64,000 bases of DNA. Source: Paraburkholderia sabiae (lineage in GTDB: Bacteria; Pseudomonadota; Gammaproteobacteria; Burkholderiales; Burkholderiaceae). The DNA is taken from contig NZ_CP125295.1 in NCBI RefSeq assembly GCF_030412785.1, positions 6,510,001 through 6,574,000 of the forward strand, given 5' to 3'. Made by a program: the position numbers and the translations under genes. Of the stretch, positions 627 to 57,121 are shown one piece after another. The notes under the pieces are model-generated. The model searched no databases and was not told the DNA's origin. It saw nothing but the letters and a program-made list of their open reading frames with translations. The stretch's first letter is position 1; each line of letters opens with the position of its first letter.

Positions 627-1517
627 TTATGCCGTCGTCGTGTTGCCTCGCAGGCGGGCGAGAATGCCTTCGAGCGCGTCGAGGTCGCCGAAATCGACCT
701 GCACCTGGCCTCGCCCGCGTCGACCGAGCTTGATCTTCACCGTTGCGGCGAGCAGATCGGACAGCTCCTCTTCGAGCCGGCGCGTATCGCGGCCGCCGTC
801 GTTGTTCGCTTTCGCTTTCACGGCGGGCGCAGCCTTCGTCGTCGTCGTGACCAGTTTTTCCGTTTCGCGGACGGACATCCGTTTGTTGATCACCTGATTG
901 GCGAGCGTGATCTGCGTGGCGGCATCGACGGCGAGCAGCGCGCGCGCATGGCCCATGTCGAGGTCGCCGGCGAGCAGCATCGTCTGCACGGGCGAAGCCA
1001 GGTTCAACAGACGCAGCAGATTCGACACCGCGCTGCGCGAGCGTCCAACCGATTCAGCCGCCTGTTCATGCGTGAAGCTGAACTCGTCGAGCAAACGCTG
1101 GATGCCTTGCGCCTCTTCGAGCGGGTTCAGATCCTCGCGCTGGATGTTCTCGATGAGCGCCATCGCGGCCGCAGCCTGATCGGGCACATCGCGCACCAGC
1201 ACGGGCACTTCGTCGAGACCCGCCAGACGCGCCGCGCGAAAGCGCCGCTCGCCGGCGATGATCTCGAATTTTTCCGGTGAAACGGGCCGCACGAGAATCG
1301 GCTGCATCAAGCCTTGCGCGCGGATGCTGGCCGCCAGCTCCTGCAGCGCGCCCTCGTCCATGCGCGTGCGCGGCTGGTACTTGCCCGCCTGCATCTTGTC
1401 GAGCGGCAGCGTGTGCGGCGCGCCGTCGATCTTTACCGCTTCCGTGATGTCCGCGCTTCCGCCGAGCAGCGCTTCCAGCCCCCTGCCCAACCCTTTCTTC
1501 CGTGCTACTGCGTTCAT
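627..1517 (-). CDS. parB: Chromosome partitioning protein ParB
   Basis: CTP-dependent clamp and centromere-binding protein that loads at parS and spreads. With the start at 1517 it is 296 aa. The N-terminus (NAVARKKGLGRGLEALLGG) is the usual ParA-interacting segment. Box II GERRFRA is at residues 89-95, ENIQREDLNPLEEA at 123-136, a helix-turn-helix at about 149-170, and a dimerisation domain at the C-terminus. An ATG at 1559 would overlap the parA stop as ATGA and add 14 residues. I prefer 1517 because an AGGA site precedes it and the family starts there. It is the second gene of parA-parB, and two perfect parS sites lie nearby at 3574 and 5127. Confidence 0.96.
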   Translation of the reverse strand: MNAVARKKGLGRGLEALLGGSADITEAVKIDGAPHTLPLDKMQAGKYQPRTRMDEGALQELAASIRAQGLMQPILVRPVSPEKFEIIAGERRFRAARLAGLDEVPVLVRDVPDQAAAAMALIENIQREDLNPLEEAQGIQRLLDEFSFTHEQAAESVGRSRSAVSNLLRLLNLASPVQTMLLAGDLDMGHARALLAVDAATQITLANQVINKRMSVRETEKLVTTTTKAAPAVKAKANNDGGRDTRRLEEELSDLLAATVKIKLGRRGRGQVQVDFGDLDALEGILARLRGNTTTA

Positions 1518-1555
1518 CGTGGTTCCTCGATCGGCTTTGGATGATAGTCGCTGCG

Positions 1556-2326
1556 TCATAGCGCACGCACCCGTTCAATCATTTCGGCGCCGAACTGCAC
1601 ATAAGCCTGCGCGCCGCGCGACGCGCGGTCGAACACGACGCCCGGCAAGCCATAACTCGGCGCCTCGGCAAGTCGCACGTTCCGCGGAATGACGACGTCG
1701 AACACCTTGTCGCCAAAATGCTCTTTCAATTGATCCGATACCTGCTGTTGCAGCGTGATGCGCGGATCGAACATCACGCGCAGCAAGCCGATTACCTTCA
1801 GGTCGCGATTCAGATTGGCGTGAACCTGCTTGATGGTATTGACGAGGTCCGACAGGCCTTCAAGCGCGAAGTATTCGCATTGCATCGGAATCACGACGCC
1901 ATGCGCGGCACACAGGCCGTTGAGCGTGAGCAGCGAGAGCGCGGGAGGACAGTCGATCAGGACGAAGTCGTAGTCTTGCACGACGTGCGCGAGCGCTTCT
2001 CTGAGCTGTCGCTCGCGGTTTTCCATGCTAACGAGTTCGACTTCGGCGCCCGCCAGTTCGCGATTGGCTGGCAACACGTCATAGGAAACGGATTCCGGCT
2101 TGACGCGTGCATCGGCGACCGACACACCGTCGACCAGCACTTCGTACACCGTGTTCTCGCAGGCGGCCTTATCGATGCCGCTGCCCATCGTGGCGTTGCC
2201 TTGAGGATCGAGATCGATGAGCAGAACCCGCTGTCCCTGCGATGCGAGGCTCGCGGCGAGATTGACCGCGGTCGTCGTTTTGCCGACTCCCCCCTTCTGG
2301 TTCGCAACGCAGAAGATTTTTGCCAT
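1556..2326 (-). CDS. parA: Chromosome partitioning ATPase ParA (Soj)
   Basis: Walker-type ATPase that drives segregation of ParB-parS complexes over the nucleoid. It is 256 aa, the normal length for chromosomal ParA without an N-terminal HTH extension. The deviant Walker A KGGVGKTT is at residues 11-18, with DLDPQGNAT and the switch region IDCPPALSLLTLNGL further on. The gene is 48 bp downstream of rsmG and 38 bp upstream of the chosen parB start, in the standard mnmG-rsmG-parA-parB order of origin-proximal clusters. Confidence 0.97.
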   Translation of the reverse strand: MAKIFCVANQKGGVGKTTTAVNLAASLASQGQRVLLIDLDPQGNATMGSGIDKAACENTVYEVLVDGVSVADARVKPESVSYDVLPANRELAGAEVELVSMENRERQLREALAHVVQDYDFVLIDCPPALSLLTLNGLCAAHGVVIPMQCEYFALEGLSDLVNTIKQVHANLNRDLKVIGLLRVMFDPRITLQQQVSDQLKEHFGDKVFDVVIPRNVRLAEAPSYGLPGVVFDRASRGAQAYVQFGAEMIERVRAL

Positions 2327-2374
2327 CTTTTAGGTGTCCCTTTGCAGCCTGTTTAATGAAATCCCGATTGGTAT

Positions 2375-3052
2375 TCAGCCTACCGTGACTTCGACCAGAT
2401 GCCGTTCGGCTTCCAGCGATGGCACTTTGAGACGAATCACCTGCTTGACGTGCGCGCCTTCCGGCAAGCGCTCGATTTCCCCATCCGGTCGAACACCCTT
2501 CATCGCCCAGATCGCGCCGTTGTCCGCAACGAGGTGACGGGCCAGTGTAACGAAATCCGCGAGTTCTGCGAATGCGCGCGAGACGATCACATCAAACTTT
2601 TCTGGAATCTCGACGCCCGGCTGCAGACTTTCGACGCGGCCGGTCACCACAAACAGATTCGTCAGACCAAGTTCCGCCTTGGCCTGCGACTGGAAGGCCG
2701 ATTTCTTCTGCACGATGTCGTTGACCGTGATCGACCATTCCGGGAATACGATCGCCAGCACGATACCGGGCAATCCACCGCCCGAGCCGACATCCAGCGC
2801 CGAGGCAGGCCCGAGCGCAGCCAGATGCGGAACGATCGAAAGGGAATCCAGAATGTGCTGAATCAGCATTTGCCGCGGATCGCGGATCGCCGTCAGGTTG
2901 TAGACGGCGTTCCATTTCGCCAGCAATGCAACGTAGTCGAGCAGTTTGGCCTTTTGCTCCGGGCTCAGGTCGATGCCCAACTCACGCAGGCCTTCGTCCA
3001 GCAGACCGGCGAGCGCATCCCGCCCCGCCGCCGTGTTGGAACGCGCCGTCAT
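2375..3052 (-). CDS. rsmG: 16S rRNA (guanine-N7) methyltransferase RsmG (GidB)
   Basis: SAM-dependent methyltransferase for m7G527 of 16S rRNA (E. coli numbering). At 225 aa it has the family length. The SAM-binding motif [17 protein letters not shown] is at residues 85-101 and a conserved VSRAFAEL segment follows. Its start overlaps the mnmG stop by 4 bp, so the two are translationally coupled. Loss of RsmG is known to give low-level streptomycin resistance; no lesion is visible here. Confidence 0.96.
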
Positions 3053-5007
3053 TGAGCCACCGGCGAGTTGTCGGTGCCAGCATCCGCGGGTTTCTGCGCG
3101 CGTCGGCCGAGACCGCGCTTCAGATGGACCATCAACAGCGAGATCGCGGCCGGTGTAATGCCCGAAATGCGCGACGCCTGCCCGATCGTTTCCGGCCGGA
3201 ATTGCGTCAGCTTCTGGCGTGCTTCGAACGACAATCCGCGCACTTCGGCGTAATCGAGATTTTCCGGCAGCCGGGTGTTCTCGTGTGCTTCGTTGCGCTC
3301 GATCTCCCCTGCTTGTCGCTCGATATACCCCTGATATTTGACGCCGATCTCGATCTGCTCCTTGATCTGCGCCAGCAGCACATCGTCGTCCGCAAGCGTT
3401 TCAGCGGGCCCGCAGGTGCCTTCGCGCAACGCGCAAACGCCGTCGTAGGACACGCCGGGGCGCCGCAAAAGGTCGGCGAGGCTGTATTCGTGGTCGATCG
3501 GTTTGCCGAGCAAAGCAGTCGCTTCCTCAGACGAAAGCGTCTTCGGATTCACCCAAGTCGTCCGCAGTCGCTCTGTTTCACGTGAAACAGCGTCGCGCTT
3601 GCGGCTGAACGCGTCCCAGCGGACATCGTCGACCACACCCAGCTCACGACCAATCTCCGTCAGACGCATGTCTGCGTTGTCCTCACGCAGGCTCAAGCGG
3701 TATTCCGCACGGCTGGTGAACATGCGATACGGCTCCGAAACACCGCGCGTCACCAGATCGTCCACCAGCACGCCCAGATACGCCTGATCGCGGCGCGGGC
3801 ACCACGCGTCCTTGCCCTGGACGTACAAACCGGCGTTGATACCTGCCAGCAAGCCTTGCGCAGCCGCTTCTTCGTAACCCGTGGTTCCGTTGATCTGGCC
3901 GGCAAAGAACAGGCCGTTGATCACCTTCGTCTCCAACGACGCCTTCAATCCGCGCGGATCGAAGTAGTCGTACTCGATCGCGTAGCCGGGACGCAGGATG
4001 TGCGCATGCTCCAGACCGACCATCGAACGCACCAGCTCCAGCTGGACATCAAAAGGCAGGCTCGTCGAGATACCGTTCGGGTAGAACTCGTTGGTGGTCA
4101 GCCCTTCCGGCTCCAGGAAGATCTGGTGTGATTCCTTGGATGCGAAGCGATGAATCTTGTCTTCGATCGATGGGCAGTAACGCGGTCCAACGCCCTCGAT
4201 AACGCCCGTGTACATCGGCGAGCGGTCCAAACCGCTGCGGATGATGTCGTGCGTCTGAGCGTTGGTGTGCGTGACCCAGCACGGAACCTGTCGCGGATGC
4301 TGTTCGACTCGACCGAGGAACGAGAAAACCGGGATCGGATCGAGATCGCCCGGCTGCTCTTCGAGCTTCGAGAAATCGATCGTGCGTCCGTCGATTCGCG
4401 GCGGCGTCCCCGTCTTCAGGCGCCCTTGCGGGAGCTTCAACTCCTTCAGGCGTGCCGACAGTGACACGGCCGCAGGATCCCCTGCCCGTCCGCCCGTGTA
4501 GTTGTTCAGGCCGACGTGGATCTTTCCATCGAGGAACGTGCCAGCGGTCAAAACCACCGCACGCGAGCGGAATCGCACGCCAACCTGCGTCACAGCACCG
4601 ACGACACGGTCGCCTTCGACCATCAAATCATCGACGGATTGCTGGAAAAGCCAAAGATTCGGCTGATTTTCGAGCCGGTGACGGATTGCCGCCTTGTACA
4701 GAATGCGGTCAGCCTGAGCGCGCGTGGCCCGAACAGCAGGCCCCTTCGACGAATTCAGGATGCGGAACTGGATGCCGCCTTCATCGGTGGCAGCCGCCAT
4801 CGCGCCGCCAAGCGCGTCGACTTCCTTCACCAGATGGCCTTTGCCAATGCCGCCAATCGACGGATTGCAGCTCATCTGGCCGAGGGTTTCGATATTGTGG
4901 GTCAGCAAGAGGGTCTTGTTGCCCATGCGCGCGGACGCCAGTGCGGCTTCCGTGCCGGCATGACCGCCGCCAACGACGATTACGTCAAACTCTGTGGGAT
5001 AAAGCAT
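3049..5007 (-). CDS. mnmG: tRNA U34 carboxymethylaminomethyl synthesis protein MnmG (GidA)
   Basis: FAD-dependent subunit that works with MnmE to make cmnm5U34 in tRNA. With the ATG at 5007 it is 652 aa. The Rossmann FAD motif [12 protein letters not shown] is at about residues 11-22. The GidA signatures ([11 protein letters not shown] and [18 protein letters not shown]) and the C-terminal helical MnmE-binding domain are present. A GTG at 5019 would add MRSA in frame; the family N-terminus ML(Y/F)[12 protein letters not shown] favours 5007. A perfect parS site at 3574-3589 lies inside the coding sequence and encodes A-V-S-R-E-T. Confidence 0.97.
3574..3589. promoter_or_regulatory. parS centromere site inside mnmG
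   Basis: A perfect copy of the universal chromosomal parS palindrome TGTTTCACGTGAAACA. It is read through as codons of mnmG. It is the expected loading site for ParB, whose gene is 2 kb away. This sequence type is the one used by primary chromosomes; secondary replicons of Burkholderia are known to use other parS sequences. Confidence 0.93.
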
Positions 5008-5111
5008 CGCGGATCTCACGCAGGATCCAGCGTGAGCCTAAAAAAGAAAAAGTATGGGCGAAATTATAGCGGGTTCGCTTTCGGCCCGAATTCCGTCCGA
5101 TCGGCATAAGA

Positions 5112-5148
5112 CAAAAAAAAGCGGCGTGTTTCACGTGAAACACGCCGC
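5112..5148 (-). terminator. Rho-independent terminator of the first liv operon, built on parS
   Basis: Positions 5121-5148 form a perfect 28-bp palindrome with a 14-bp GC-bounded arm on each side. On the minus strand it is followed at once by a run of eight T (plus-strand A's at 5113-5120). This is the layout of an intrinsic terminator for transcripts leaving livF (stop at 5184). The central 16 bp are a perfect parS. Confidence 0.75.
5127..5142. promoter_or_regulatory. parS centromere site in the livF-mnmG intergenic region
   Basis: Perfect TGTTTCACGTGAAACA, about 1.5 kb from the copy in mnmG. The palindrome continues 6 bp on each side (GCGGCG/CGCCGC), giving a hairpin at the RNA level as well as a ParB site in DNA. 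Confidence 0.93.
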
Positions 5149-14071: not shown

Positions 14072-15286
14072 TTATTTCCACAGCGCGCAGCGCGTTTCCT
14101 GCTTCGTCGTAAACGCCTGCTCGCCCGGAATCGTGGCGGTGATCTTGTAGTAGTCCCACGGCTCTTTCGACTCGGCCGGCGTCTTCACCTGCATCAGGTA
14201 CATGTCGTGGATCATGCTGCCGTCCTGACGGATGTAGCCCTTCGCATAGAAGTCGTCGATCTTCTGCTTCTTCAGTTGCGCCATCACCTTGTCGGCATCC
14301 GTCGAACCCACCGCCTTCACGGCGTTCAGGTATGTCATCGTTGCCGAGTAGTCGGCGGCCTGCAGGCTCGACGGCATCTTCTTCATCTTGTCGAAGTAAC
14401 GCTGCGACCACTTGCGCGTCGTGGCGTCCTTGTTCCAGTACCAGCTGTCCGTGAGCACGAGGTTTTGCGTCGTTTCGAGGCCCAGGCTGTGGATGTCGTT
14501 GATGAAGACCAGCAGTGCCGCGAGCTTCATCGTCTTCGTGACGCCGAATTCCTTCGCGGCCTTGATCGAGTTGATCGTGTCGCCGCCCGCGTTCGCGAGG
14601 CCGAGAATCTGGGCCTTCGACGCTTGCGCCTGCAACAGGAACGACGAGAAGTCCGATGCCGACAACGGGTGACGCACTTCGCCCAGCACCTGGCCGCCGT
14701 TCGCCTTGACGACGTCGGCGGTGTTCTTTTCCAGCGCCTTGCCGAACGCGTAGTCAGCCGTCAGGAAGTACCACGTCTTGCCGCCCTGCTTCGTCACGGC
14801 CGAACCGGTGCCCTTGGCGAGCGCCGTCGTGTCGTACGCATAGTGGACCGTGTACGGCGTGCATTGCTCGTTGGTCAGCGTATCGGCGCCTGCGCCGATG
14901 CTGATGTAGACCTTGTGCTTTTCGCCCGCGACCTGGTTCATCGACAGACCCGTTGCCGAGTTCGTGCCGCCCACCAGCATGTCGACGCCATCGCGGTCGA
15001 ACCATTCACGCGCGCGCGACGCTGCAATATCCGCCTTGTTCTGGTGGTCGGCATAGACGACCTGGATCGGCTTGCCGTTCACCTTGCCGCCGAAATCGGC
15101 CACTGCCATGCGGATCGCTTCGAGACCGCCCTGCCCGTCGATGTCGGCGTAAAGACCCGACATGTCCGTGATGAAACCGATCTTCACTGCATCGTCGGCA
15201 GCCCGCGCGCTGCCCGCCGTCAATGCGACGCCTGCGGCTGCCGCAAAACAGATTGACGTGAACCGCGCGAGTGTCTTCCTTTTCAT
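14072..15286 (-). CDS. Periplasmic binding protein of the second Liv-type transporter
   Basis: Peripla_BP_6 family, 404 aa, with a GAAGGAGA ribosome site and a signal peptide of about 29 residues ending in TAGSARA. The mature region starts ADDAVKIGFITDMSGLYADIDGQGG. It is a different subfamily from the two binding proteins at 9-11.6 kb. Members of this subfamily are often linked to catabolic clusters rather than plain amino-acid uptake. The neighbouring GMC oxidoreductase and MmsA suggest an alcohol- or acid-type substrate, but the ligand is unknown. Confidence 0.92.
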   Translation of the reverse strand: MKRKTLARFTSICFAAAAGVALTAGSARAADDAVKIGFITDMSGLYADIDGQGGLEAIRMAVADFGGKVNGKPIQVVYADHQNKADIAASRAREWFDRDGVDMLVGGTNSATGLSMNQVAGEKHKVYISIGAGADTLTNEQCTPYTVHYAYDTTALAKGTGSAVTKQGGKTWYFLTADYAFGKALEKNTADVVKANGGQVLGEVRHPLSASDFSSFLLQAQASKAQILGLANAGGDTINSIKAAKEFGVTKTMKLAALLVFINDIHSLGLETTQNLVLTDSWYWNKDATTRKWSQRYFDKMKKMPSSLQAADYSATMTYLNAVKAVGSTDADKVMAQLKKQKIDDFYAKGYIRQDGSMIHDMYLMQVKTPAESKEPWDYYKITATIPGEQAFTTKQETRCALWK

Positions 15287-31231: not shown

Positions 31232-31520
31232 AGTCTTTCGTTCGTTGTTGACAGCATGCCGTCGCCCGTCGACACCCGATATCCGATGCCCGCGCGCCGG
31301 CAGTCTGTGGGGGGAAGCTTCGCCGGATCACCCGGCTCGCCGAATCCTACTATCTCAAAAATTTCCTGTGATGCCGGCCTGTTCCGGTCGGTCACGCAGG
31401 CGTTGCACACGCTCCGTCTGTTGCGAGCCCTGTTGGTTCGGGCCACGCATGAACGTGATCCCTGGCAGGCCGCAACGATGAAAAACGTCATTCTATGCGA
31501 GAGCGGCGAATCGTACAGCT

Positions 31521-31770
31521 AAGTTATCCAATGCAATCTGTGGATAACCACGGGATAAGACAGGGGACGACTTGTGCGCCGATTCTTGATAACCCATGCG
31601 ACTGCGCCAGTTCTGAGAATCGTTCTCCCAGGTTCCGGCTCGCGATGCACGGCCGATCCGCATGGTTATCGTTTACGCAGCCCCTTGAGTTTGCAGGAAA
31701 TTATTCGGTTGTCCACAGGCAAACGCAATGCTTGTTAACTACTACTACGTTTGTATACGTAAACTTTGAG
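31521..31770. other. Candidate oriC, left lobe (DnaA boxes and DnaA-trio-like repeat)
   Basis: An A/T-rich stretch in a gene-free region (31232-31895). Perfect DnaA box TGTGGATAA at 31539-31547, with a diverged box TTATCCAAT at 31524-31532 forming a dyad AAGTTATCCA-N8-TGTGGATAACC. A second box TTGTCCACA (8/9) is at 31709-31717. Exactly 14 nt later TTGTTAACTACTACTACGT (31732-31750) carries three CTA/TAG triplets like the DnaA-trio of bacterial unwinding elements, then A/T-rich TTGTATACGTAAAC. The same layout recurs inverted at 34960-35227. Its position next to the parAB/parS domain fits a primary-chromosome origin. Origin function is inferred. Confidence 0.72.
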
Positions 31771-31799
31771 AAAAGCTTAAGGACGCGTTACCGGAATTC

Positions 31800-31827
31800 G
31801 AAAAAAAAAACCCGCCAGAAGCAGGTT
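31800..31827 (-). terminator. Rho-independent terminator of the YbdK-like gene
   Basis: AACCTGC/GCGGGTT stem with one G-T wobble (31809-31815 with 31821-31827) and loop TTCTG, followed on the minus strand by about ten T. It lies 69 bp after the stop at 31896. Confidence 0.85.
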
Positions 31828-31895
31828 TCTTCAAGCTTCGCTCATTCGCAAGGCAGTTGCTTGCGGGAGCAAAACAGCGAACTGCGTTGTCCGGA

Positions 31896-33011
31896 TCATG
31901 CGCGCCACTGCAGGCACTGCTGACGAACCGCTTCGTGCAGCGACTTTTCCTGTTCGACCACGTTGCGCAGCCACGTTGCATCGTTCACCTGACCGCGCGC
32001 AATCGCGCCGATCTCTTCGAGCGCCTTGCCCGAGCCCAGCGCATCCGCATGAGGCGCAATGCGCTCGAGCGTTTGAATGATGTCTTCGGAGATCGTGCGA
32101 CGCTCGCCCGTCTGCGGATCGATACAGGTGCCGGCAAGACCGAAGCGGCACGCCTCGAAGCGGTTGAAGGTGTAGACGAGGTAGTCGTCTTCCTTCGGCG
32201 TCAGCGGTTTGTCGAGCAGCAGATGACGCGCGAGCGTCTGGATGTAGCAAGCGATCGCGGCCGCGCGATCGACGGAAAGCGGTGTATCCATCACGCGCAC
32301 TTCGATCGTGCCGAAACCGGGCTTCGGCCGGATGTCCCAGTAGAAGTCCTTCATGCTGTTGACGACGCCCGTATGCACCATCTTCGAAAAGTATTCTTCG
32401 AAGCTGTCCCACGTGAGGACGAACGGCGCGCGGCCCGACAACGGAAACGCGAACACGGAATTCAGGCGTGCCGAGTGAAAGCCGGTATCGACGCCCTGCA
32501 CGAACGGCGACGACGCCGACAACGCGATGAAGTGCGGAATGAAGCGCGACATCGAATGCAGCAGGAACAACGCGCTGTCGGCATCCGGACAGCCGATGTG
32601 CACGTGCTGGCCGAACACCGTGAACTGTTTCGCAAGGTATCCGTAGAGTTCCGAAAGGTACTGAAAGCGCGGCGTGTCGACGATCTGCCGCTCGCTCCAT
32701 TGCTGGAAAGCGTGCGTGCCGCCGCCGCACAGCCCGACGTTCAGGCGGTCGGCTGCGGCGACGAGCACATCGCGAATCCTGCGCAGATCCGCGACGGCCT
32801 GTTCGTGCGTCGTGCAGATGCCCGTCGACAGCTCGATCATGCTTTCCGTGATTTCCGGCGTGATGTTGCCCGGAATCTTTTCGTCCTTGATGAGCCGGAG
32901 CAGGTCGGTCCCCGCTTTGGTCAGATCATAGTCATGGGTATTGACGATCTGCATCTCGAGTTCGACACCGAAGGTGAACGGTTTCGAATCGATGAAGGCT
33001 TCGAGTGACAT
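31896..33011 (-). CDS. YbdK-family carboxylate-amine ligase (glutamate-cysteine ligase 2 type)
   Basis: 371 aa. It starts [29 protein letters not shown], the GCS2 family opening with the glutamate-binding ELE motif. [15 protein letters not shown] and HVHIGCPD are further family signatures. Members catalyse ATP-dependent gamma-glutamyl or similar amide formation, and E. coli YbdK has weak glutamate-cysteine ligase activity. A true gshA is also present at 58697-60310, so this copy probably has another role. It lies between the two candidate origin lobes. Confidence 0.9.
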
Positions 33012-33140
33012 GGCGTTTCCTGATTCATGTCGGCGCAGGCGCGCCCGTTGCTGACGGCGCCCGGCCGGAGTGACTGTCGAATGCTGCAGCTAGACGCGCG
33101 AGCTGCGGGTAAAACGTGTGGTGTCGCGCGGACTGGCGCG

Positions 33141-34343
33141 TCACTCGCGGCGCTCGCCCACGAGCGCAAGCGAGCGGTACACGAGCCACGGTCCGACGAG
33201 TTGCAACACGACGATCGAACACATCGTGACGGCGCGCAGCGTCGGGTCGAAATTCGGATAGAGCTGGTACGTGTCGTCGACGAGCAGATAGGCGAGCGCC
33301 GACATCGGCGACAGCGACAGACCGAGCGCCACGCCCTGCTTCATGTTCAAGCCGCTCGGTTTGGCGAACGCCAGCACACCGACAAGCTTCGCGATCAGCC
33401 GCGCGACGATCAGCCCCAATGCAGCGAGACCGCCTATCGCGATGTCGCGCCACTCGAAGGTCGTCAGCGTGAGCACGAACAGAATCACCGTCAGCAGCCA
33501 GCCTGCCGTGCCGAAATGCGCCGGCCACAACTGCGGACGCGCTTCCAGATTCTTCACGATGATGCCGGCCGCGAGCAGACTCAGAATGGTCGACAGCTTG
33601 AAGATATGCGCCAGCGCAATCGCCAGCAGCACGAGGCCGAACAGCGCGACAAACGAGTGTTCGTCCTGCAGATTCACACGCTTGTAAAAGAACGTGATGG
33701 TGCGCGCGAGCAGATACGCGAGGATCAGCGAACCGATCAGCAGATAAAGCGGCTGGAGAATCGTCGCGAGCAGATTGCCGTACGCCTCCTGATGCAGCCA
33801 GCCGGACGCGAGCTTTTCGATGATCACCGCGTACATGCTGTTGAGCGCCGTGAGCGTCATCAGGCGCTGCGTGACCTGCCCTTCCGCGCGCAGTTCCGTT
33901 TTCAGCTGGATCACCATCGCGGGCGACGTCGCCATCGCGATCGACGCGAGCACGAGCGCCGTCACCGTCGATACGTTCAGGAACAGCAGCACCAGCAGCA
34001 CGAGCACGAACGTCAGCGTCGATTCAGCGACGCTCGACACGATCAGCCACGTATTGCGGCGAATCCACCGCAGATCCAGCCGGCTTCCCAGCTCGAACAG
34101 CAACAGCCCGAGCGCGACATCGAGCAGCGGACGCGCGGTCGCAGCCGAATCCGCGTCGATCACGCCCGAACCCGCCGCGCCGGCGATCAGGCCGATCACT
34201 GCATAGCCGGAAATGCGCGGCAAATGCCACGCGCGATAGCACAGCTCGCCGACGAGACCTGCGGCGAGCAGTGCGAGGCCTGCCCAGAAAATGGCATCGG
34301 GCGTGAGCGGCCAGCCTGGAAAAAATGAAAACGCCGACTTCAT
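33141..34343 (-). CDS. CPA2-type cation/proton antiporter membrane domain
   Basis: 400 aa from the ATG at 34343, which has an AAAGGAG ribosome site. The frame to 34643 is not supported. About 12 hydrophobic segments with the Na_H_Exchanger pattern: LPRISGYAVIGLIAGAAGSG near residue 40 and LLLFELGSRLDL near 80. There is no C-terminal TrkA-N or RCK domain, unlike KefB/KefC. It probably exchanges K+ or Na+ for protons at the inner membrane. It is 129 bp upstream of the YbdK gene and probably co-transcribed with it. Confidence 0.9.
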   Translation of the reverse strand: MKSAFSFFPGWPLTPDAIFWAGLALLAAGLVGELCYRAWHLPRISGYAVIGLIAGAAGSGVIDADSAATARPLLDVALGLLLFELGSRLDLRWIRRNTWLIVSSVAESTLTFVLVLLVLLFLNVSTVTALVLASIAMATSPAMVIQLKTELRAEGQVTQRLMTLTALNSMYAVIIEKLASGWLHQEAYGNLLATILQPLYLLIGSLILAYLLARTITFFYKRVNLQDEHSFVALFGLVLLAIALAHIFKLSTILSLLAAGIIVKNLEARPQLWPAHFGTAGWLLTVILFVLTLTTFEWRDIAIGGLAALGLIVARLIAKLVGVLAFAKPSGLNMKQGVALGLSLSPMSALAYLLVDDTYQLYPNFDPTLRAVTMCSIVVLQLVGPWLVYRSLALVGERRE

Positions 34344-34959
34344 CGTGGTGGCTTCTCCTTTGCAGCAACGGCAGGCAACGCGAACGGGCAGACGCCGCCA
34401 GCACGCAAGCCGTGGGCCGCATCCATTGCCGCGATCGGTTCGCGTTCGCCGGCGTTGCGAGTTGTCAACGATCGGATGAAAACTGAAACGACTACACCGA
34501 TGCCGCATGACTACAGGCGGCACGACGTGAGTGAAAAGAGCGCCGTCGACTTTTGAATCAGATTCTTGGGGTCCGGCAACCGTTCCATTGGCGCGTCGGT
34601 TGCGGGGGCAAAACACGACGCGGAAGAACGGCGATTGTGCCATAGCTTCTTTGCACTTGACGGAAAAGCGTCGAACAAGCGCTCAAAGCGGTAAAACGTA
34701 CGCTAACTCGATGACAACAGGAAAAAGCGACCGGAAATAGCGCGCATTTCGGCGGAAAACGGCTTGTTCCTGGCGCTGTTGTACGGCTGGATCCGCCTTC
34801 GGACGCTGGATGGGCGGGGGTGCTTGCGTTTGAGTGTCGCCGAGGCCGGGCGTTCCGGTTTTCGGCCGAGTATGAACAGAACGGTTCGCCCGGGAAGTGC
34901 GGTTCTGTACATGCAAGATCCAAAGATGTTGCCGCCAGCCGACCACGGGCTTCTCAACA
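34344..34959. other. Gene-free stretch upstream of the antiporter gene
   Basis: Several short overlapping frames but none with a ribosome site or family resemblance. It must hold the antiporter promoter. I see no repeat or RNA gene. It leads into the right origin-like lobe at 34960. Confidence 0.5.
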
Positions 34960-35227
34960 ATAGGTTTACCTGTATGTATACGTAGTAGAAGTTAACAAAG
35001 GCACTGCTTTTCTGTGGATAACCAAGGTTTACCGAAACGAATCAGCGCTTTGCCGAACGCATAACCGGATGCGTTTGATGTGTGCGCCCGTCGGTGTTCT
35101 TCGGATAACTTTTGGGGCTGCGTTAACGTCTGCCGAGTTACCCCGTTTACGTCCACATCGATTCCACACGAGTTTCGCCCGCAATTTCCCCGGTTATCCA
35201 CAGCACGCCGTGGATAACTTTTCCACA
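34960..35227. other. Candidate oriC, right lobe (inverted copy of the left lobe layout)
   Basis: Read on the minus strand: perfect DnaA box TTATCCACA at 35021-35013, then exactly 14 nt, then TTGTTAACTTCTACTACGT (34998-34980), identical to the left lobe at 18 of 19 positions, then A/T-rich sequence with TATACATAC. Further out, about 170 bp away, AAGTTATCCA-N8-TGTGGATAACC (35219-35192) repeats the outer dyad of the left lobe. It combines a perfect box at 35194-35202 and an 8/9 box at 35209-35217; TTTTCCACA (8/9) at 35219-35227 extends it. The order, spacing and mirrored orientation match the left lobe 3.2 kb away. Confidence 0.72.
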
Positions 35228-55504: not shown

Positions 55505-57121
55505 ATGAATGCTTCGGTATCCGCTCCCGGCGATACAACAGCCGATTCGACGCCGCCCATCGCCGCTACGCCCGCGCAACTGGCCGCCCCTGCTCCGGCC
55601 CCGGCTCCGCTCACCGGCGGCACGCTCGCGCTGCTGACGGTCGGCCTCGCGCTCGGCACGTTCATGGAAGTGCTCGACACGTCGATTGCCAACGTCGCCG
55701 TGCCGACCATCTCCGGCAGTCTCGGCGTCGCGACCAGCGAGGGGACGTGGGTAATCTCGTCGTACTCGGTGGCATCGGCGATTGCCGTGCCGTTGACGGG
55801 CTGGCTCGCCCGGCGGGTCGGCGAGGTGCGATTGTTCACGCTGTCAGTGCTGCTTTTCACGATCGCGTCGGCGGCTTGCGGCTTCGCGCACAACTTCGAG
55901 TCGCTGATCGCGTTTCGTCTGCTTCAGGGGCTGGTTTCCGGTCCGATGGTGCCGCTGTCGCAGACCATTTTGATGCGCTCCTATCCGCTGGAAAAGCGCG
56001 GCCTCGCGCTCGGCTTATGGGCGATGACGGTGATCGTCGCGCCGATCTTCGGTCCCGTGATGGGCGGCTGGATCACCGACAACTACACCTGGCCGTGAAT
56101 CTTCTACATCAACCTGCCGATCGGCCTCTTTTCGGCGGCGTGCGCCTACTTTCTGCTGCGCGGACGCGAAACGCCGAAGTCGACACAGCGTATCGACGGC
56201 ATCGGCCTCGGCTTGCTGGTGATCGGCGTGGCGTGTCTGCAAATGGTGCTCGATCTCGGCAAGGACCGCGACTGGTTCAATTCGACGTTCATCGTCGCGC
56301 TCGCGATCATCGCCGTGACGTCGCTTGCGTTCATGATCGTGTGGGAAACGACGGAGAAGGAGCCCGTCGTCGACCTGTCGCTGTTCAAGGACCGCAACTT
56401 TGCGCTGGGCGCGCTGATCATCTCGTTCGGCTTTATGGCGTTTTTCGGGTCTGTGGTGATCTTTCCGCTCTGGCTGCAGACGGTGATGGGCTACACGGCG
56501 GGCAAAGCCGGCCTCGCGACGGCGCCCGTCGGTCTCCTCGCGCTGGTTCTGTCGCCGCTGATCGGACGCAACATGCATCGGCTCAATCTGCGGATCGTGG
56601 CCAGCTTCGCGTTCGTCGTGTTCGCGCTCGTGTCGATATGGAATTCGACGTTCACGCTCGATGTGCCGTTCAATCACGTGATCCTGCCGCGACTCGTACA
56701 GGGCATCGGCGTCGCCTGCTTCTTCGTGCCGATGACGACGATCACGCTCTCCAGCATTTCCGACGAGCGGCTCGCGAGCGCATCCGGGTTATCGAATTTT
56801 CTGCGCATGCTGTCGGGCGCAATCGGTACGGCGATCAGTACGACGTTTTGGGAAAACGACGCGATCTATCACCACGCGGTGCTGTCGGAATCGGCGAGCG
56901 CCTATTCGGCGAATACGGCGTCTTATAGCGATCTGCTCACGTCGCTGGGCTTCAAGGGACAGGCGTTGACAGCGCAATTGAATGAGATCGTCACGCAGCA
57001 GGGCTACATGATGGCGACCAACGATTTCTTCCGCATTTCGTGCGCGGCTTTCGTCGTGCTTGCCTGTCTCGTGTGGATAACGAAGCCACAAAAAGGCGCG
57101 GCGGCGTCAATGGGTCATTGA
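55505..57121 (+). pseudogene. DHA2/EmrB-type MFS drug transporter interrupted by one in-frame stop
   Basis: A continuous 538-codon frame apart from TGA at 56096-56098, which falls in NYTWP-stop-IFYINLPIG, where DHA2 pumps normally have Trp (TGG). The first part (197 codons) has ALGTFMEVLDTSIANVAVPTISGSLG and WVISSYSVASAIAVPLTGWLARR; the rest has the remaining membrane helices to AASMGH. Everything else is intact, so this is either a recent nonsense mutation or a base error. No HlyD/EmrA adaptor gene is visible anywhere in the window. Confidence 0.85.

Follow-up and report, generated by a model that had tools for sequence, protein, structure and literature searches.

Two mirrored origin-like modules and a possible bipartite oriC on the primary chromosome of Paraburkholderia sabiae

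The origin of replication of Escherichia coli, oriC, is under GATC/Dam/SeqA control. Bacillus subtilis and Helicobacter pylori possess a bipartite oriC, whose DnaA boxes are distributed over two separated halves (PMC6669920, PMC8235120). The basal unwinding system (BUS) consists of a DnaA box, a spacer, repeated 3'-GAT-5' triplets and an A/T tract (PMC8287927). Chromosome 1 (c1) of Burkholderia cenocepacia J2315 replicates bidirectionally and carries two DnaA-box clusters, its exact origin being described as 'not clear' (PMC4948915), and DnaA of Burkholderia pseudomallei was reported in 2026 to bind amplicons that contain DnaA boxes and come from the skew switch or its vicinity (PMC12914326). 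On CHR1 of Cupriavidus metallidurans the skew switch is located 90 kb from dnaA, beside 213 nt with three perfect boxes (PMC2864759), and double origins 291 kb apart were proposed in silico for Ralstonia pickettii (PMC4403523). Here we describe a locus within 64,000 nucleotides of Paraburkholderia sabiae DNA (assembly GCF_030412785.1, contig NZ_CP125295.1, positions 6510001-6574000; this whole stretch is called the window), in which two origin-like lobes, A and B, face each other across two genes. Judged from its sequence, the locus is very probably the origin region of the primary chromosome (chromosome 1).

Both lobes contain the same elements in the same order, namely a distal DnaA-box dyad, 170-181 bp, a proximal DnaA box, 14 nt, GTTAAC (GTWWAC) with CTA triplets, and A/T-rich DNA with further GTWWAC sites (Table 1). 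Each is a self-contained directional module of approximately 230 bp, and the two modules face each other across the two genes. The dyad of lobe A includes a perfect '<' box 170 bp from the proximal box; the gap between dyad and proximal box amounts to 159 bp in lobe A and 170 bp in lobe B. Spacers of 14 nt (31718-31731; 35012-34999) separate the proximal boxes from the two 19-mers, which are identical at 18 of 19 positions; the triplet stretches read CTACTACTA in lobe A and CTTCTACTA in lobe B. The initial annotation had given the coordinates of both lobes, the mirrored order, the 14-nt spacer, the 18/19 identity and a dyad-to-box distance of approximately 160-170 bp, all of which were borne out by reading the sequence. 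Its right-hand limit needs refinement: the elements are present, with 35227 being the end of a third box and the dyad itself occupying 35220-35192. Although architecture and core are common to both, the lobes share 49% identity over 280 aligned bp. On this value and their placement in separate groups of a tree of modules (see below), a recent duplication was rejected as the source of the two lobes.

Table 1. Coordinates of features in the window (position 1 is its first nucleotide).
Feature	Position	Strand	Basis or remark
Lobe A, distal DnaA-box dyad AAGTTATCCA-N8-TGTGGATAACC	31521..31549	+	direct sequence reading
Lobe A, proximal DnaA box TTGTCCACA, then G (CACAG)	31709..31717	+	sequence
Lobe A, motif TTGTTAACTACTACTACGT with one GTWWAC site and three CTA triplets; A/T-rich TTTGTATACGTAAAC follows	31732..31750	+	
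Lobe B, distal DnaA-box dyad	35192..35220	-	sequence
Lobe B, third outer box TTTTCCACA	35219-35227		
Lobe B, proximal DnaA box TTATCCACA	35013..35021	-	sequence
Lobe B, motif TTGTTAACTTCTACTACGT, then TATACATACAGGTAAACC	34980..34998	-	sequence
Cumulative GC-skew minimum of 634 contiguous kb	32046		314 bp inside lobe A
Four GTWWAC sites, lobe A	31671..31764		starts 31671, 31734, 31753, 31759
Six GTWWAC sites, lobe B	34964..35150		starts 34964, 34976, 34991, 35027, 35122, 35145
GCS2-family (ybdK-like) gene between lobes	31896..33011	-	PF04107, E=2.5e-58
Na/H exchanger gene between lobes	33141..34643	-	PF00999, E=3.9e-26; longest open reading frame (ORF), start codon provisional
ParB, ParA, GidB and MnmG genes (627-5019) and two parS-like sites	627..5142	-	neighbours of origin region

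The combination of box, spacer and 19-mer, with up to three mismatches, was matched at two places in the window, and 100 dinucleotide shuffles yielded no match. In the 9.9-Mb genome the 19-mer occurred four times at up to two mismatches (reversed control, 0); a looser 16-mer retrieved the same four sites at zero mismatches and six at two mismatches (reversed control, 25). DnaA boxes with at most one mismatch number two in lobe A, which was matched by 2 of 1000 mononucleotide shuffles, and four in lobe B (0 of 1000). Their clustering in the lobes exceeds chance in these shuffles, the background being 4e-5 such boxes per strand-position. Within 634 kb of P. sabiae, three facing box pairs 160-190 bp apart were found, corresponding to A, B and D, the last being one of two further copies of the core, C and D, that are described below. 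An isolated perfect DnaA box, one of nine in the 634 kb, is located at window position 57072. A plasmid-borne or mobile nature of the lobes was rejected after blastn against plasmids, which gave no match for lobe B and partial ones for the outer part of lobe A (24-33% of the query) in four Paraburkholderia replicons. On those replicons the outer 80-107 bp of lobe A (window 31480-31587, including the stretch before the dyad) have counterparts with 77-88% identity.

Consistent with an origin at the lobes, the minimum of cumulative GC skew lies between them (Table 1), and skew values changed from -0.046 left of C and -0.016 between C and A to +0.018 from B to dnaA and +0.021 beyond D. The local minimum was found between the lobes in 20 of 23 pair-bearing 20-kb loci; since these loci share genes, they are not independent, and the position of the minimum may reflect gene composition. 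The gene order in the 20-kb loci is HK, SET, OYE, (MOSC), GATase, MarR, A>, GCS2, NHE, <B, MnmC, HU, CobW, LYZ, GspD, individual genes being absent in some of them (MOSC, GATase, MarR, GCS2, NHE, MnmC, HU and CobW were labelled by Pfam; HK, SET, OYE, LYZ and GspD by ORF reading). Synteny of MarR-[A>]-GCS2-NHE-[<B]-MnmC-HU is conserved over several genera, and in group g13 (one genome) a related module of similar geometry adjoins dnaA. It is the skew minimum inside the pair, the conserved synteny and this dnaA-adjacent module that point to an origin region. For the B. cenocepacia chromosome, BCAL0003 is a MarR gene (PMC7364216), so that by gene order nucleotide 1 of c1 would be situated near the NHE/MnmC junction, the site of lobe B.

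A 99-position core profile built from 42 modules was used to follow the module in relatives. Family-wide, it matched at least once in 199 of 220 genomes and in 17 of 25 genera. Order-wide, 13 of 120 genomes matched, four of them family members including P. sabiae itself; E-values of seven of the nine non-family matches were 3e-4 to 9e-3. Within the genus (58 genomes, own included, stricter filters), four core copies were present in 24 genomes, three in 23 and two in 11, and never more than four. A more sensitive search of 27 genomes gave four copies in 13, three in 5 and two in 9; a convergent A-B pair was found in 21 of them, with the lobes 3.0-3.5 kb apart (4.5 kb in G020), and a close divergent module pair in none. 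In genomes in which dnaA could be placed, its upstream side generally holds the pair, at 37-65 kb, and C, at about 170-344 kb, and D is found on the downstream side at about 6 to 85 kb. An exception is G034, whose pair is 252 kb downstream of dnaA, and in some draft genomes the modules fall on different contigs. Both lobes are conserved in relatives.

Spacing is conserved as well. A 16-mer scan of genome contigs returned at least 120 stretches; among the 120 matches listed, 13 held both lobes within one stretch (strict pattern). Among the 80 named matches listed, the motif is preceded at constant spacing by a DnaA box in all those from Burkholderia, Paraburkholderia, Caballeronia, Trinickia and Mycetohabitans, and a box with this spacing is absent from two entries named as Burkholderiales only (L112, L113) and from the other bacteria. 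Over all loci then collected, a DnaA box (up to two mismatches) was located within 45 bases upstream in 125 of 174 sites; a few of the 125, at other distances and in other phyla, look like chance matches. All 24 A lobes compared have their distal box between -191 and -193, modules of group g11 have it at -194, and most B lobes have boxes at -203/-204 and -218/-219.

A further property of the modules is their content of GTWWAC and CACAG sites. GTWWAC is methylated in relatives. In Ralstonia solanacearum, five loci have several conserved GTWWAC sites that are methylated; one of them is the region common to a SET gene and an HU-like gene, which holds three conserved sites and was interpreted as regulatory (PMC5390034). 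A SET/HU junction is the site of a module in loci of groups g24 and g3. In P. sabiae the lobes hold 10 of the 16 GTWWAC sites of the window, the GTTAAC of the core motif being one such site in each, and A, B, C and D account for four of the five 300-bp clusters that are richest in this motif within 634 kb. Over 220 module instances, repeats included, GTWWAC density was 3.7 per 140 bp of module sequence, one site of which belongs to the selecting motif, compared with 0.26 in random pieces (one per instance, same loci). CACAG is present at the proximal box in 220 of 225 instances, again counting repeat entries. GTWWAC was absent from two modules of the g24/g3 group (L272, and L283 of g13) and hence is not universal outside the genus. 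As in E. coli oriC, candidate methylation sites are packed in the unwinding region and the DnaA boxes (comparison in PMC7364216 and PMC5390034), but the motifs here are GTWWAC and CACAG.

The two-lobe picture of the initial annotation turned out to be incomplete, the lobes being two of up to four core copies per genome. In P. sabiae the four 19-mer sites, A, B, C and D, are all on the same chromosome: C at contig position 6,339,404, approximately 202 kb left of lobe A, and D at 14,347, 14 kb past the dnaA start and 53 kb from lobe B. Across relatives the distal box of C and D copies is often found at -207; C of P. sabiae (G000) lacks a box there and has one at -120 instead. D of G000 and of G020 is nested among B lobes in the tree, as a younger copy of lobe B (75.5% identity between D and lobe B of G000). 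Both C and D occur in recurrent gene neighbourhoods. Module C adjoins the same gene cluster in several genomes, with opposite orientation in G000 and G229 relative to G165 and G022, and D of G000 is on the other side of its gene cluster relative to D of G022, G031 and G165. In the left arm of the G000 chromosome (G000:C1), skew is near zero for approximately 70 kb (about 6.34-6.41 Mb). The near-zero skew between C and A was considered as evidence of an active origin at C and rejected as such, since the left arm is about equally weak in G024, the one C-less genome compared. Near C, the strand differences at fourfold sites in G022, which has C, were below those in G024; this was not so in G000, which also has C. 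It is more likely that C and D are dormant origins, or satellites that bind DnaA, than that replication routinely starts there.

How the lobes would work can be framed by the described systems. Like the bipartite origins of B. subtilis and H. pylori, the locus has two separated DnaA-box halves; clusters separated by genes and conserved together are present in 21 of the 27 genomes. It differs from these origins (PMC6669920, PMC8235120) in its spacer, which is formed by two unrelated genes, in its distance of 39 kb from dnaA and in that each half of the intact form has a putative unwinding motif, the two being in mirror orientation. An unwinding element in one half only is thus not what P. sabiae has. 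That arrangement, one half with the unwinding motif and the other with boxes only, was seen in B-only loci, i.e. in lineages in which lobe A has decayed. In the Cupriavidus and Ralstonia predictions (PMC2864759, PMC4403523), too, a box cluster of similar size coincides with a skew switch remote from dnaA; another cluster is situated at a distance of about 130 kb, and more than one origin was suggested. However, the accessible text neither recognises those clusters as repeats of a single directional module nor gives a mirrored pair. In the accessible account of B. cenocepacia J2315 c1 (PMC4948915), a module, triplets, a mirrored pair and additional copies are likewise absent.

The DnaA-trio layout proposed in the initial annotation is matched fairly well but incompletely: a DnaA box, a spacer, repeated triplets and an A/T tract follow each other as in BUS. 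The modules depart from BUS in the 21 nt between box and first CTA, in having two to three triplets, and in the presence of several copies per chromosome (PMC8287927). The related modules of g24 and g3 loci come closer to the published layout: they have CTACTACTACTA and four triplets, and in each of the three g24 copies the box is followed by an imperfect second one, giving tandem boxes. These modules are placed between SET and HU and elsewhere.

We consider it likely that the two lobes are the two halves of a DnaA-dependent bipartite oriC with a mirrored unwinding module in each, and with extra core copies near dnaA and about 200 kb away. A contribution of both lobes is more probable than not. 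ATP-DnaA bound at the proximal box would extend over the CTA triplets of one strand and open the A/T tract; the distal dyad and the other lobe may assist through DnaA-DnaA contact, the intervening DNA being bent or looped. Methylation of GTWWAC and CACAG sites, altered just after fork passage, probably limits re-initiation. As to the main opener we lean towards lobe B, which is favoured by retention across lineages; the raw skew minimum favours A.

Several observations weigh against this reading. Six of the 27 genomes have no pair; G010 and G033 are drafts, G011, G030 and G052 have a decayed A, and G014 is the sixth. Lobe A scored low in three of the 21 pair-bearing genomes (G020, G048, G057). 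The existence of single-module lineages means that one lobe suffices somewhere. Two strict CTA triplets are conserved overall, in a set selected with that motif, and the CTA run begins 21 nt from the box, beyond the maximum of 16 nt given in PMC8287927, except if TTGTTAACT, with its four mismatches, is accepted as a second, degenerate box. The skew minimum is outside the pair in three of the 23 loci, and in 17 of them the raw minimum is 0.2-0.7 kb inside lobe A and not at B. Fourfold-site skew was alike for MarR, GCS2 and NHE across A+B, B-only and A-position-only groups and did not separate the lobes. In eight 20-kb spot samples of the rest of the replicon, skew signs were mixed near 3-4 Mb.

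Functions other than initiation are known for DnaA-box loci: datA and DARS of E. coli are DnaA-regulatory. By analogy, a single lobe, most likely B, could be the origin, the other lobe being, like C and D, a satellite that titrates or resets DnaA and whose triplets are relics or regulatory. This is a serious rival, although distinctly less likely than a bipartite oriC. By profile, eight loci have lobe B only. In their MarR-GCS2 space the distal '<' box is kept in 8/8 (with one mismatch in two) and the triplets are gone; the proximal box, 168-170 bp further, is also kept in 4/8. Lobe A thus decays to boxes only, which speaks for this rival. Among Burkholderia-like genomes of group g12 (genus guessed), two of three are B-only, unlike P. 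sabiae. The eight B-only loci make up two thirds of the 12 single-module loci compared. The other four, all of g11, have their module at position A, with a NHE-MnmC space without box, and in the tree this module groups with B lobes at modest support. In two further loci (g16 and g7), position B is occupied by a tandem of two modules, and the A region is free of boxes. Tandem modules in the same direction are approximately 360-490 bp apart in L279 (9706/10190) and L280 (9700/10061), from two genera of the family, and similar tandem profile matches were noted in a genome of another family in the order (G266:C1:5138104 and 5138493). C and D show that core copies can occur apart from the origin with no skew switch accompanying them, which also fits satellites. 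On the other side, lobe A scores at least 53 bits in 18 of the 27 genomes and has retained its triplets and spacing, features that titration by itself would not require, and the raw skew minimum is closer to A than to B in most loci. In the tree of 79 modules, A lobes group together (split support 0.79), as do most B lobes (0.88; 0.49 with the g8 lobe and g11 module added), which indicates that the lobes are old and have been conserved separately. We read this as an old two-lobe origin whose lobe A tends toward a box-only half; decay of A to a box-only partner would yield an ordinary bipartite oriC.

Independent origins of the archaeal kind, at which replication would start from both A and B and on occasion from C or D, would accommodate up to four core copies per genome, the recurrent neighbourhoods of C and D and the double origins proposed for R. 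pickettii (PMC4403523), but are very unlikely in view of the single main skew minimum; in addition, the weak C-A skew is equally weak in C-less G024 and so gives no sign of firing at C, and C of P. sabiae has its other box at -120 instead of a distal box at the usual distance. It is hardly credible that the pair is not an origin and that replication starts beside dnaA, with the modules being promoter elements controlled by DnaA or methylation: dnaA and D are 39 and 53 kb from lobe B, and the R. solanacearum SET/HU region with three conserved GTWWAC was taken as regulatory (PMC5390034), but the skew minimum is at the pair and not at dnaA or D, A and B are intergenic with a fixed two-box geometry, and C. 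metallidurans has a skew switch 90 kb from dnaA with similar geometry (PMC2864759).

With regard to the surroundings of the bipartite oriC favoured here, the two genes between the lobes had been annotated initially as ybdK-like and antiporter genes, in agreement with the Pfam matches in Table 1. The genes for ParB, ParA, GidB and MnmG and the parS-like sites are approximately 26-31 kb left of the lobes, close to the 26-30 kb first given for parAB, parS and mnmG. The two parS-like sites, at 3574 and 5127, match the parS motif perfectly. As the initial annotation stated, dnaA is outside the window; it lies approximately 39 kb right of lobe B, and the 6,584,006-base contig begins at dnaA.

A mirrored two-module oriC in Burkholderiaceae was not found described in the titles and abstracts listed by searches of the open PMC literature. 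The initial statement that no description was known stands for the mirrored pair but not for the locus, which by gene order would correspond to nucleotide 1 of B. cenocepacia c1, for which two DnaA-box clusters are mentioned (PMC4948915), and B. pseudomallei DnaA was reported to bind at or near the skew switch (PMC12914326). The claim of a primary-chromosome origin in two lobes is supported for the region by skew, synteny and the g13 module, and both lobes are conserved, whereas the two-lobed form is not universal, as B-only and single-module loci show. What is new is the module, the mirrored pair, the decay of lobe A and the extra copies.

A bolder possibility, which we regard as improbable on present sequence data, is that the up to four directional modules in recurrent places include at least two at which, within one cell type, DNA is opened and forks are loaded. 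Replication would then start mainly at the mirrored pair, and GTWWAC methylation would coordinate the remaining modules as reserve origins; if true, this would be a multi-module origin system in a bacterium. The presence of origin-core copies elsewhere on the chromosome in any case raises the question why they are kept. The methylation reported for GTWWAC and CACAG would gain a concrete place of action, including the Ralstonia SET/HU region that had been taken as regulatory (PMC5390034). A module defined by sequence would place the origin of the main chromosome to the base, in a family in which that of B. cenocepacia c1 is 'not clear' in print (PMC4948915). Loci with A and B, with B and a box-only A, with a single module and with tandem modules form a natural series for the rise and decay of bipartite origins, and the mirrored pair allows a test of whether strand opening at two sites that face each other can serve one bacterial origin.

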